Source: Bacteroidia bacterium (GTDB taxonomy: Bacteria > Bacteroidota > Bacteroidia > Flavobacteriales > Flavobacteriaceae). From it: 64,000 nucleotides of DNA. The stretch covers positions 62,001-126,000 of the forward strand of contig JAUIBW010000006.1 in assembly GCA_030427585.1 (NCBI GenBank), given 5' to 3'. The first letter of the stretch is position 1; the number at the start of each line of letters is the position of its first letter. Of this stretch, positions 29,107-52,628 are shown in pieces. The notes under the pieces are model-generated. The model was not told where the DNA came from. It made no database searches and worked only from the letters and a program-made list of their open reading frames with translations. A program made the translations under genes and the position numbers.

Positions 29107-29134
29107 AAGAGTTCTTACCGAAGTAAGAACTCTT
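29107..29134. terminator. Hairpin terminator between convergent genes
   Basis: AAGAGTTCTTAC-CGAA-GTAAGAACTCTT. Confidence 0.75.
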
Positions 29135-30404
29135 TTAGTTTTTCATAATTATTTACCATTATACTATGTTTTTCTTTACCCATCACTTTTTGAATCTGAT
29201 TCGGGATTTCTATAGTTGTATCCAGAGTTTCTTCAACTATATTTAAAAATTTAACCGGGTGAGCCGTTTCTAAAAATATACCATATTGATCATTAGTGAT
29301 CTCATGCTCTTTAAGTCCCAAATATCCGACAGCACCATGTGGATCGGCAACATATCCCGTTTCATTATATATCATTTTCATAGCTTTTCTGGTCTGATCA
29401 TCATTAAAACTATATGCAGAGAAGTTATTCTTAAGATCGGCAAAACTATGATTAAAAAGTTGTTGTATTCTGATAAAATTACTTGGATTACCTACATCCA
29501 TCGCATTAGAAATTGTAGCTTTTGATGGTTTTGGTTGATATTCTGAAGTTTCTAAATACCTAACAACAGTATCGTTTATATTGGTCGATGCTACAAACTG
29601 TTTAACAGGAAGTCCTAATTTGTGAGCTACAATTCCTGCGCAAATATTACCAAAATTACCACTAGGTACAGAAAATACAATATCTTTTTTCTTATGCTTA
29701 ACCTGTTTGTAGGCAAATAAGAAATAAAATAATTGCGGAAGCCATCTAGCTACATTAATAGAATTTGCCGACGTTAATTGTTTATGATCCGTAATACTTA
29801 TATCCAAAAATGCAGTTTTTACCATTTCCTGACAGTCATCAAATACTCCGTCGACTTCTAAAGCTGTTATGTTTTGCCCTAGTGTAGTTAATTGTTTCTC
29901 TTGTATTTTGCTTACTTTCCCGCTGGGATAGAGAATAACCACATTTACGCCTTTTACTCCTAAAAAGCCATTTGCAACCGCACCACCGGTATCTCCAGAA
30001 GTAGCGACCAAAACAGTAACCTCGTTTTCGTTATTTCTATTAAAGTATCCTAAACATCGTGCCATAAAACGGGCTCCAACATCTTTAAAAGCCATAGTTG
30101 GGCCATGAAATAGTTCTAAGGTTCCTATATTATCTTCGACTTCTACAACCGGGAAATCAAAACTTAAAACATCGGCCAAAATATCCCGTAGTTCTGGTTC
30201 AGGAATTTCATCCCCAACAAATTGTTGTATTGCCTGATAAGCAATTTCAATGTTATCCAGGTGTTCTATGTTTTCAAAAAACGAACCGGGTAACGGAGTA
30301 ATATTTTCTGGAAAGTACAATCCTCGATCTGGAGCTAAACCTTTTATGACAGCTTCAGAAAAGGATACTTTAGGAGCATTATTATTTAAGCTATAGTATT
30401 GCAT
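29115..30404 (-). CDS. thrC: Threonine synthase
   Basis: MQYYSLNNNAPKVSFSEAVIKGLAPDRGLYFPE; FHGPTMAFKDVGARF; ATSGDTGGAVANGF. Confidence 0.95.
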   Translation of the reverse strand: MQYYSLNNNAPKVSFSEAVIKGLAPDRGLYFPENITPLPGSFFENIEHLDNIEIAYQAIQQFVGDEIPEPELRDILADVLSFDFPVVEVEDNIGTLELFHGPTMAFKDVGARFMARCLGYFNRNNENEVTVLVATSGDTGGAVANGFLGVKGVNVVILYPSGKVSKIQEKQLTTLGQNITALEVDGVFDDCQEMVKTAFLDISITDHKQLTSANSINVARWLPQLFYFLFAYKQVKHKKKDIVFSVPSGNFGNICAGIVAHKLGLPVKQFVASTNINDTVVRYLETSEYQPKPSKATISNAMDVGNPSNFIRIQQLFNHSFADLKNNFSAYSFNDDQTRKAMKMIYNETGYVADPHGAVGYLGLKEHEITNDQYGIFLETAHPVKFLNIVEETLDTTIEIPNQIQKVMGKEKHSIMVNNYEKLKEFLLR

Positions 30405-30429: not shown

Positions 30430-31353
30430 TTATTCTATTATCTTAATTCCTTTACCATTAATCTTTGAAATGTGTATATCAAAATCAATTCCTGTTTTGT
30501 CGTAAATATCTTGTATCACATTTGCTACATCGTTTGCAATCTTCATACCTTTACTAAGTGCAAAAATCGAAGGCCCCGAACCAGATATTCCCGAACCCAA
30601 AGCACCTTTTGCAATAGCTGCATTTTTAACATTATTAAATTCAGGAATTAAAATAGATCGTAACGGTTCGATAATTACATCATCCAGACTTCTACCAATT
30701 AAATCATAATCTTCTGTAAACAATCCAGCAACAAACCCTCCTAGGTTTCCCCATTGATGAATTGCTTTTTTTAAGGTTACTTTATGTTTGATTACAGATC
30801 GTGAATCTGATGTTTTTACTTCTATTTGCGGATGAATAACGGTCATTACCAGGTCTTTTGGTGAATGTAGTTTTATAATATCCAATGGATCATAACTACG
30901 TACCAAAGTAAATCCACCAAGAAGAGCAGGGGCAACATTATCTGCATGTGCATTACCACTCGCTAATTTTTCCCCTTCCATTGCAAATTTTACCAATTCG
31001 TGTGTGGTAAATGGATTACCTAATAAATGGTTTATAGCCCAAACAGCACCAGAGCTACTGGCGGCACTACTTCCTATTCCGCTACCTGCTTTTATCTTTT
31101 TATAAATTTCAATAGCGACTCCAATGTTCTCTCCGTATGCTTTAAGAAAAGCTTCAACAGCGACACCAGCAACATTTTTATGAGTCTCCATAGGAAGATC
31201 AGCTCCTTCAATCTTTGTTATTTTTACACCAGGATCTGCTGTGATAGAAATTACCATTTCGTCACCAACATTATCCAGACAACATCCTAACACATCAAAT
31301 CCGCAAGAAAGATTGGCAACCGTAGCAGGGGCAAATATTTTGATACTTTTCAT
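30430..31353 (-). CDS. thrB: Homoserine kinase
   Basis: FAPATVANLSCGFDVLG; GSGIGSSAASSSGAVWA GHMP kinase motif. Confidence 0.95.
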   Translation of the reverse strand: MKSIKIFAPATVANLSCGFDVLGCCLDNVGDEMVISITADPGVKITKIEGADLPMETHKNVAGVAVEAFLKAYGENIGVAIEIYKKIKAGSGIGSSAASSSGAVWAINHLLGNPFTTHELVKFAMEGEKLASGNAHADNVAPALLGGFTLVRSYDPLDIIKLHSPKDLVMTVIHPQIEVKTSDSRSVIKHKVTLKKAIHQWGNLGGFVAGLFTEDYDLIGRSLDDVIIEPLRSILIPEFNNVKNAAIAKGALGSGISGSGPSIFALSKGMKIANDVANVIQDIYDKTGIDFDIHISKINGKGIKIIE

Positions 31354-31379: not shown

Positions 31380-33827
31380 CTACTTACTTTTACCTATCCT
31401 TATAATATCTGCAAAGATACCAGAAGCAGTAACTTCGGCACCGGCACCAGCTCCTTTAACAATTAGAGGTTGTTTAGGATATCTATCGGTATAAAAAAGT
31501 ACAATATTATCACTTCCTTCTAGATTATAAAAGGGATGATCAACTGGTATGTGCTGTAATCCTACTTTGGCATTTTCTGCTTCATATTGTGCTACATACT
31601 TTAGTCGACATTGTTTTTTGTTGGCTTCTGCCAGAATTTCTTTAAAATGATCTTCGTTTTTGGCTAGTGAATTAAAGAACTCGTCTACACTTTTAGATTC
31701 TAAACTTTCCTGAGGAAGAAATGCTTCATTCTCTATATTTTCAAGCTCCATAACTTTTTCACTTTCACGGGCAAGGATCAAGATTTTTCGAGCAACGTCA
31801 ACACCGCTTAAATCAATCTTAGGATCTGGTTCTGTATATCCTTCTTGCTGAGCCTGTTTTACGATATCATGAAAAGTAACTTCTTCGGTGTAATTATTAA
31901 ACACAAAATTAAGACTGCCAGATAATACAGCTTGTATTTTATGAATATTATCTCCAGAGGCAATTAAGTTATTAAGTGTGTCTATTATTGGTAAACCGGC
32001 TCCAACATTGGTTTCATATAAGAACGGAGCATTAAATTTTCTAGAGAGATCTTGCAATTCTTCATAATTAGAATATTCATCTGCACATGCGATCTTATTA
32101 CAAGTTACTACAGCCATACTTTCTGCCAAATAGTGTTTATAAATCTTAGCAATATTAGGATTTGCAGTATTGTCTACAAAGATAGAATTACGTAGATTCA
32201 TTTCTTTTGCTTTTGCGAAAAATGATTCTGCATTGGCTTTTTCTCCTTGTGCAAGGATTTCTTGCCACTTATCAAGATCGATTCCATTTTCATTAAAGGC
32301 CATTGTTTTGGAATTTGACATCCCGACCACACGAATTTTTAAACGTAATTTATCTTTAAGATACTTATTTTGCTGCTGAAGCTGTTCAAGTAATTTACTC
32401 CCTACGTTTCCTACGCCAGTTATAAATAGATTTAGCTGTTTTGTTTTTACTTCAAAAAATCGTTCATGTAATATGTTTAAGGCTTTTTTGATATCCTTTT
32501 TTGCAATTACTACAGAGATATTTTTTTCTGAAGCCCCTTGCGCAATTGCCCTAATATTTACATTGTTTTTACCCAGCGTACTAAACATTTTTCCACTCAA
32601 CCCCTGGTGATGGTACATATTATCACCAACCAATGCGACAATAGCTACATCATTTTCTATTTTAACAGGATCTAGCTTATGTTTAGAAATCTCGAACTCG
32701 AATGTAGTATCCAAAATGGTTTTGGCTTTCTCTGCTTCAGAAGCTTCGACAGCAAGACATATAGAATGCTCAGACGAAGCTTGTGTGATAAGGATTACAT
32801 TTATATTTTCTAAAAATAAAGCTTCAAATAAACGTTTTGAAAATCCAGGAATACCAACCATGCCACTTCCCTCCAGAGAAATGATCGAGATACTATCTAT
32901 ATGACTAATCCCGGTAACTGGTTTTTTTCGTTCTTCTACTTTTCTAGTGATAAAAGTTCCTTGATCCTTAGGTTTAAAAGTATTTTTAATCACTATAGGA
33001 ATATTCTTTTCTAATACAGGATGTATAGTAGGAGGGTAGATTACTTTAGCTCCAAAATGAGAAAGCTCCATAGCTTCCTGGTACGAAATATGATATACTG
33101 GTTTTGCTTGTTTTACCAATCTTGGATTGGCAGTATATAGCCCGCTTACATCTGTCCAGATTTGTAATTCGTTGGCATCGATGGCCGCAGCTAGAATAGC
33201 TGCAGTAAAATCAGATCCACCTCGTCCTAATGTTGTAGGTTCACCATCTTGTGTTCTTGCAATAAAACCTGGAAAAAGACTTACTTTGTGTGTATTGTTA
33301 TTTGCAAATTCTTTGATTCTGGCATTGGTTTCTTTATAATCTATTACAACTTTAGAGTTAATGGTTTTAACAATGAGTTCTCTAGAGTCTTTTAAAACGA
33401 TATCTAAGCCTTTTATTTTAGTTGCTTCTAGGATAATATAAGAAGAGAGCATTTCTCCAAAACTTGCGATTACAGAAGCAGTTTTGGGAGATAATTCACT
33501 TAGTAAATATACTCCTTCGCATAATGATTCTAGGGTATTAAGCTCTGCTTTAACCTTACTTATTATTGCACTTTGGGATACTACAGGAATAAGAGTTTTT
33601 ACAACCTCAAAATGTCTTTTTTCAATTTCTGCCAGTGTGTTTTTATAATTTTCATTATTAGCAGAAGCTTCCTCTCCGGCTTGTAACAACAAATCTGTAA
33701 TTCCGCCCATTGCAGAAACAACTACATATAAGGGTTGATTTTGTGATTGTTGTTTTATGATTTCTATTACACTTTCTATGGTCGATGCATTAGCGACAGA
33801 AGAACCTCCAAATTTTAGAACGTTCAT
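31380..33827 (-). CDS. thrA: Bifunctional aspartokinase / homoserine dehydrogenase
   Basis: MNVLKFGGSSVANASTIESV aspartokinase; ACT region; C-terminal HSD (FITGVGNVGSKLLEQL, EPDPKIDLSGVDVARK). Confidence 0.95.
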   Translation of the reverse strand: MNVLKFGGSSVANASTIESVIEIIKQQSQNQPLYVVVSAMGGITDLLLQAGEEASANNENYKNTLAEIEKRHFEVVKTLIPVVSQSAIISKVKAELNTLESLCEGVYLLSELSPKTASVIASFGEMLSSYIILEATKIKGLDIVLKDSRELIVKTINSKVVIDYKETNARIKEFANNNTHKVSLFPGFIARTQDGEPTTLGRGGSDFTAAILAAAIDANELQIWTDVSGLYTANPRLVKQAKPVYHISYQEAMELSHFGAKVIYPPTIHPVLEKNIPIVIKNTFKPKDQGTFITRKVEERKKPVTGISHIDSISIISLEGSGMVGIPGFSKRLFEALFLENINVILITQASSEHSICLAVEASEAEKAKTILDTTFEFEISKHKLDPVKIENDVAIVALVGDNMYHHQGLSGKMFSTLGKNNVNIRAIAQGASEKNISVVIAKKDIKKALNILHERFFEVKTKQLNLFITGVGNVGSKLLEQLQQQNKYLKDKLRLKIRVVGMSNSKTMAFNENGIDLDKWQEILAQGEKANAESFFAKAKEMNLRNSIFVDNTANPNIAKIYKHYLAESMAVVTCNKIACADEYSNYEELQDLSRKFNAPFLYETNVGAGLPIIDTLNNLIASGDNIHKIQAVLSGSLNFVFNNYTEEVTFHDIVKQAQQEGYTEPDPKIDLSGVDVARKILILARESEKVMELENIENEAFLPQESLESKSVDEFFNSLAKNEDHFKEILAEANKKQCRLKYVAQYEAENAKVGLQHIPVDHPFYNLEGSDNIVLFYTDRYPKQPLIVKGAGAGAEVTASGIFADIIRIGKSK

Positions 33828-33928
33828 AATATATTGTATTTTTTTAAGTTGAAATTATTAATAAAAGTTTTGTTAGTAATTCTTTTTTTTGAATTACATA
33901 CGTGATGCGGTGGTAATATATAAATGAA

Positions 33929-34042
33929 CTAACCCCTAAGGGTAATAGTAGTAATAGTACCTGTTGTAATAGAAGAAACCTCAGATACGATAATTGTTCC
34001 TAAGGTAAATAATAAAGCCGATAAGAAAATGGTACTAAACAT
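33929..34042 (-). CDS. Putative thr operon leader peptide, 37 aa: MFSTIFLSALLFTLGTIIVSEVSSITTGTITTITLRG
   Basis: Short ORF 101 nt upstream of thrA on the same strand, with Thr/Ile codon-rich tail (ITTGTITTIT) and a consensus promoter 24 nt upstream of its start. Confidence 0.8.
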   Translation of the reverse strand: MFSTIFLSALLFTLGTIIVSEVSSITTGTITTITLRG

Positions 34043-34065
34043 TTGTTTGCTTTACTTTGCGTGTT

Positions 34066-34073
34066 CAAATGTA
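34066..34073 (-). promoter_or_regulatory. TAnnTTTG -7 element (TACATTTG) for the thr leader/operon
   Basis: Exact consensus match; predicted TSS near 34061, ~18 nt before the leader ATG. Confidence 0.6.
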
Positions 34074-52429: not shown

Positions 52430-52628
52430 ATGATACCAGATTTATCTAAATAAGCCTTGATATTATATTATTTTTTATTGTTTTCCAAAGACATAAACCT
52501 TTGCTTTTTTTTGATAAATTTTTAATACTATAATTTGTAGTGTTATAGTTTTATAAATGTTTGATTTATTACTAAGAAATTGTAATCATTAAAAGGTTTA
52601 ATCCATATTCCTTCATATGATAAAATTT

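Follow-up and report, generated by a model that had tools for sequence, protein, structure and literature searches.

A conserved threonine-rich leader ORF without an evident intrinsic terminator precedes thrABC in Aquimarina and most Flavobacteriaceae

The window analyzed here is a stretch of 64,000 nucleotides from a genome of the class Bacteroidia, and it carries the threonine operon thrABC on its minus strand. The nearest named orthologues of its thrA (94-98% identity) belong to A. atlantica, A. megaterium, A. macrocephali, and close relatives, and by sequence the source genus is Aquimarina. Read along the minus strand, a TAnnTTTG element (34073..34066) is followed by a short ORF, a 101-nt gap, thrA beginning at 33827, thrB, and thrC (Table 1). 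The sequence-only reading of this DNA had proposed the short ORF as an unannotated leader peptide, and both its extent (34042..33929) and its distance from the thrA ATG matched exactly. The aspartate-kinase paralogues of the same Aquimarina genome have no such leader. Elsewhere, the window contains a bacterial RNase P RNA of class A (RF00010; positions 1858-2165, 212.7 bits).

Table 1 Features of the thr locus, with positions in the window, and the tandem attenuators upstream of ilvD in the same genome
Feature	Position	Strand	Basis
Predicted promoter -7 element TACATTTG (TAnnTTTG) of the leader-thrABC transcript	34066..34073	(-)	family-wide occurrence of TAnnTTTG
Leader peptide ORF, 37 codons + TAG, Thr-rich tail ITTGTITTITLRG	33929..34042	(-)	ORF list; family-wide conservation; N/S
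Hairpin 1, ACCC(TTAG)GGGT, from the last Thr codon to the stop codon	33932..33943	(-)	recurrence at the same position; helix variants; compensatory change
A/U tract, nearly G-free, about 8-16 nt past hairpin 1	33914..33925	(-)	base composition across genera
C-rich patch CCACCGCATCACG	33901..33913	(-)	base composition across genera
Hairpin 2, GTAATTC-A8-GAATTAC, without U-tract	33876..33897	(-)	strong stem in many genera
thrA, fused aspartate kinase-homoserine dehydrogenase, 815 aa	31380..33827	(-)	name from sequence and operon order; orthologues
thrB, homoserine kinase	30430..31353	(-)	ORF; assigned by sequence and operon order
thrC, threonine synthase	29115..30404	(-)	ORF; assigned by sequence and operon order
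Tandem ilv attenuators	L249, about 814-960 and 993-1130; contig C44, upstream of ilvD at 52473		

The ORF translates to MFSTIFLSALLFTLGTIIVSEVSSITTGTITTITLRG*, and its tail holds six threonines within ten codons. In 5000 dinucleotide shuffles, the 479-nt intergenic region never reached this density, and it reached five threonines in 0.08%. Over 136 leaders, threonine made up 32% of the last 14 codons (a family mean of 4.3 per leader) compared with 13% of the earlier ones, while isoleucine made up 16% compared with 12%. The tail had been described as Thr/Ile-rich and read as sensing both amino acids. With strong enrichment of threonine and slight enrichment of isoleucine, these figures bear out the threonine half of a joint sensor and do not establish the isoleucine half, and the leaders are better called Thr-rich. 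Several patterns indicate that the frame is under coding selection. Among single-base codon differences in 170 Aquimarina pairs, N/S was 1.21 compared with a neutral expectation of 2.43, and third codon positions changed most. Leader lengths in this genus differ by threes, while the lengths of the untranslated gap take all three phases. In the N-terminal half of the peptide, the first 24 residues (window 33971-34042) are hydrophobic and signal-peptide-like in Aquimarina (MFSTIFLSALLFTLG...), and not so in most other genera.

We sampled the regions upstream of thrA in 55 congeneric genomes, in about 100 Flavobacteriaceae genera (one genome each), and in samples of the order and the class. To count as a leader, an ORF had to read in frame across a hairpin of the form ACCC(C)-loop-(G)GGGT and to stop within or just past that hairpin. 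Such a leader was present at 140 of the 155 oriented Flavobacteriaceae loci (about 90%), comprising 52 of 53 Aquimarina genomes and 88 of 102 other genera of the family; 82 of the latter 88 were Thr-rich, with at least three threonines in the last 16 codons. The corresponding figures were 0.5% and 0% in shuffled regions and 36% and 2.6% on the opposite strand, where matches are expected since the hairpin is palindromic. The endings were TLRG*, TPLG*, and TLWG(C/Y)*, along with forms whose stop lies in the hairpin loop, and the distance from the leader stop to the thrA ATG was fairly steady at 60-110 nt. The 15 exceptions mostly had no leader or had a promoter near thrA; two of the exceptional loci (L158 and L159) followed the classical design described below, and a third (L118) had the hairpin with a slightly longer loop. 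When the hairpin-plus-A/U pattern was searched for in 56 Aquimarina genomes, it occurred at thrA in 36 and gave only two matches elsewhere. The Thr-rich ORF proposed from one sequence is thus kept in orthologous upstream regions, and across Flavobacteriaceae the leader keeps its position, its reading frame, and its ending.

Hairpin 1 is the most conserved part of the leader region. It overlaps the last leader codons, directly precedes the stop, and was missed by the sequence-only reading. It recurs at the same position in the 140 loci counted above, as well as in several other Bacteroidia families, and its helix is kept with different bases (AACCC/GGGTT, ACCCC/GGGGT, CAACCC/GGGTTG, and ATTACCC/GGGTAAT). 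In an unfitted alignment of 43 sequences, which were selected for ACCC..GGG so that the three inner pairs barely vary, 85.5% of cells were paired compared with 79.8% after shuffling, and 11 cells were compensatory compared with 4.8; neither value was reached in 500 shuffles. Slid registers of the alignment paired clearly worse, and a compensatory A-U/C-G change was found in columns 5/16. Three f31 genomes of the class (L208, L214, and L216) carry ACGGG-GTAA/GTGA-CCCGT-like hairpins in the same place, with reversed arm bases and the stop codon in the loop, and these comparisons lend hairpin 1 independent support.

Upstream, the TACATTTG element noted by the sequence-only reading was confirmed, and 125 of 136 loci have TAnnTTTG in the 70 nt that precede the leader ATG (5.7% of shuffles), mostly at -24..-31. 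The leader is accordingly predicted to be the first element after the promoter in the thrABC transcript. A second promoter between leader and thrA was considered and rejected as a general feature, TAnnTTTG being present there in only 14 of 94 regions (4 expected).

No intrinsic terminator with a U-tract was found between leader and thrA in the window by a test that recovers positive controls in the same genome, and neither hairpin 1 nor hairpin 2 is followed by a U-tract in the window or in most genera. Under a lax test, hairpin 1 counted as a terminator in about 22 of 136 loci, and a few copies of hairpin 2 (L042, L097, and L112) are followed by T runs. The caution that no convincing terminator separates leader and thrA was therefore justified, and it applies to the greater part of the family. 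A conserved antiterminator was likewise not found: the G arm, once freed, paired with RNA further downstream at 0.71 compared with 0.69 for shuffled sequence, and leaders paired with the downstream RNA, at hairpin 2, no better than swapped leaders did (P=0.49). A scan of the leader with Rfam covariance models returned no family at E<=5, including Thr_leader (RF00506).

The untranslated stretch past hairpin 1 has a distinctive composition. About seven nt separate the hairpin from the A/U tract; G reaches at most 3% at positions 8-16 past the hairpin among 98 genus representatives, and ATAT occurs in the tract in 81 of these 98, compared with 45% of shuffles. At positions 15-25, C ranges from about 18 to 42% across genera. 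A reading of the A/U and C-rich element as a transcriptional pause consensus was discarded, as there is no G at -10. The AT-rich hairpin 2, which had been pointed out as the one obvious hairpin and was confirmed, forms a strong stem in 57 of 98 genera compared with 5.9% of shuffles; its 3' end lies a median of 39 nt upstream of the thrA ATG, and its arm sequences vary between genera. From hairpin 1 to the ATG, C exceeds G in 132 of 136 loci, with a C/G ratio of 2.14 compared with 1.22 where the window is intergenic elsewhere. For the window's own leader, the C-over-G score stands at the 94th percentile and is equalled by 15% of other upstream regions.

Classical attenuators in the same Aquimarina genome served as internal controls. 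Its his, trp, and two tandem ilv leaders all have strong U-tract terminators of 10-13 bp. The hisG leader MKNIFVHHHHSYIFAQAW is followed by a strong terminator (L250, contig C5, 27852), and so is the trpE leader MKTILTNNWWWLSQNENVVR, which matches Bacteroid-trp in Rfam (RF01692; L257, contig C4, 205201-205323; trpE was named from its sequence). Two tandem Ile/Val leaders, MNTRSININTVIIIEVIISPR and MKIFSNIISNVIVIIVIISP, precede ilvD, each with a U-tract terminator of its own. These leaders share an amino-acid-run peptide with the thr leader, but strong intrinsic terminators are theirs only. At thrA itself, eight relatives (L159, L196, L198, L199, L209, L212, L215, and L217) carry terminator-type Thr attenuators with a U-tract terminator of 9-15 bp and a G-rich antiterminator segment. 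L158 has a AACCTTTC..GAAAGGTT stem followed by T's, where the automated test chose another stem. Such classical Bacteroidia attenuators share the gene, the Thr-codon leader, and the class with the Aquimarina leader, while the terminator and antiterminator belong to them alone. The terminator-type and hairpin-type leaders are interspersed in the same order, even in the same family, suggesting a switch of design at one locus, thrA. Since simple, terminator-bearing Thr-leader attenuators are found at thrA in relatives, control of this gene by a Thr leader is either ancestral or recurrent.

We consider it likely, with a probability of roughly 0.8, that thrABC is controlled by a Thr-codon leader without an intrinsic terminator. 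The leader is very probably a real threonine sensor acting by ribosome stalling. Comparison across genomes strongly supports this sensor half, a ribosome that would read the Thr codons; the output half we infer. When charged tRNA-Thr is scarce, the ribosome would stall on the Thr run and the operon would stay on, and when threonine is plentiful, it would finish and leave, letting hairpin 1 refold. If it stalled toward the end of the run, the ribosome would have to cover the 5' arm of hairpin 1. Enterobacterial thrL (RF00506) is likewise a short ORF rich in Thr codons that lies between a single promoter and thrABC, and it responds to the same signal, charged tRNA-Thr, that the Aquimarina leader would sense. 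Unlike thrL, the Aquimarina leader has neither terminator nor antiterminator, its Ile run is not clearly selected, and its peptide is unrelated outside the Thr run. Of the thrL logic invoked by the sequence-only reading, our comparison supports a Thr-rich leader peptide that is conserved, looks translated, and belongs to the thrABC transcript, and it does not support the terminator/antiterminator design; the mechanism is not that of enterobacterial thrL.

The off-switch may be termination that depends on Rho or on pausing with the help of another factor, and it would take place in the untranslated, G-poor stretch past the leader stop. A ribosome stalled over the Thr codons and the 5' arm of hairpin 1 would prevent it. 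Given the leader model, and on the basis of the C-over-G bias past hairpin 1, we regard such termination as the most likely effector, tentatively and at somewhat less than even odds. The succession of a C-rich tract, a GC hairpin, and an A/U plus C-rich tract recalls the rutA-boxB-rutB layout of phage lambda. Leader peptides that act through Rho include tnaC of E. coli and mgtL and corL of Salmonella. E. coli toiL-topAI is a further case (PMC12121999). A short ORF and the lack of an intrinsic terminator are common to these leaders and ours, and the untranslated C-over-G stretch downstream may be a further likeness; their signals differ, and the role of Rho here is putative. Because the window's own C-over-G score is unremarkable, Rho is weakly supported. 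Beyond hairpin 1, moreover, most of the RNA would stay exposed even with a ribosome stalled on the leader, so that the blocking of Rho by stalling is not fully explained.

Among the possible outputs, we would place Rho or another factor first, control of RNA stability or translation next, and a weak factor-assisted terminator third. The second of these, in which the stalled ribosome and hairpin 1 would alter ribosome access to thrA or shield an RNase site in the A/U tract while transcription is not attenuated, is rather unlikely. It fits the lack of a terminator at thrA, and a single-stranded A/U segment beside a hairpin resembles an RNase cleavage site. It is also favored by the pairing, in the window and its closest relatives, of the RNA just past the leader stop with the thrA start through GUUCAU:AUGAAC plus an AU helix (P about 0.97; window 33926-33906 with 33840-33822, minus strand). 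However, other members of the genus and family do not preserve this pairing (own -4.06 vs swapped -4.13 kcal/mol), and the comparison yielded no conserved helix that would sequester the start. The idea that the A/U element hides the thrA start was therefore rejected as confined to the window's clade, the only place where the sequestered main-gene start typical of a translational attenuator of the ermC type was seen. The sign would be wrong as well, because with plentiful threonine the AUG would be released by the ribosome that has reached the leader stop.

A weak intrinsic terminator, formed by hairpin 1 or 2 with a poor U-tract and aided by NusG or NusA, with the ribosome occluding the 5' arm, is improbable. 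The loci that pass the lax test and the T runs behind a few copies of hairpin 2 would suit it, but the U-tract is absent in the window and most genera, about seven nt lie between hairpin 1 and the A/U tract, and the four true terminators of the same genome are far stronger. Still less probable is a leader that boosts thrA by translation reinitiation, or keeps the RNA open, with no sensing of threonine (cf. PMC4833913): the steady spacing between leader stop and thrA agrees with it, but it leaves the selection for Thr codons and the terminator-bearing Thr leaders of relatives unexplained. As for a chance ORF in AT-rich intergenic DNA, only its small size speaks for it, and conservation has already refuted it, given the 0 of 5000 shuffles, the 90% of 155 loci compared with 0.5% of shuffles, and an N/S at half the neutral value.

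More broadly, and at close to even odds, the locus may exemplify a previously undescribed, Bacteroidia-wide attenuation design. Its entire cis-element would be a Thr-codon leader with a small hairpin at its own stop codon. The stalled ribosome would act directly on this hairpin, and factor-dependent termination or RNA processing would follow in place of an intrinsic terminator. This design would have interchanged with the classical one at the same gene during evolution of the phylum.

Earlier comparative predictions of classical attenuators reportedly cover Bacteroidetes. Predictions of this kind in bacteria are attributed to Lopatovskaya 2010, as cited in PMC10272879. Leader-peptide attenuation upstream of amino-acid operons of Flavobacterium psychrophilum has been noted in general terms (PMC9723704); that paper concerns the same family and makes the same type of claim, and its main text mentions neither a thr element nor a leader that lacks a terminator. 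A candidate attenuator in a Bacteroidota genome thus has more precedent than the sequence-only reading implied, in view of that paper and of the his, trp, and ilv leaders of classical type in this genome. The literature we covered, with PMC9723704 represented by its main text, contained no account of a Thr leader of the terminator-less kind.

As related genomes carry one design or the other at thrA, and four classical leaders provide internal controls, terminator-less attenuation is directly testable here, in a phylum in which transcription termination and Rho have been little studied. If the proposal is true, most Flavobacteriaceae, and apparently other Bacteroidia, would control threonine synthesis by an unannotated leader with a non-textbook off-switch.
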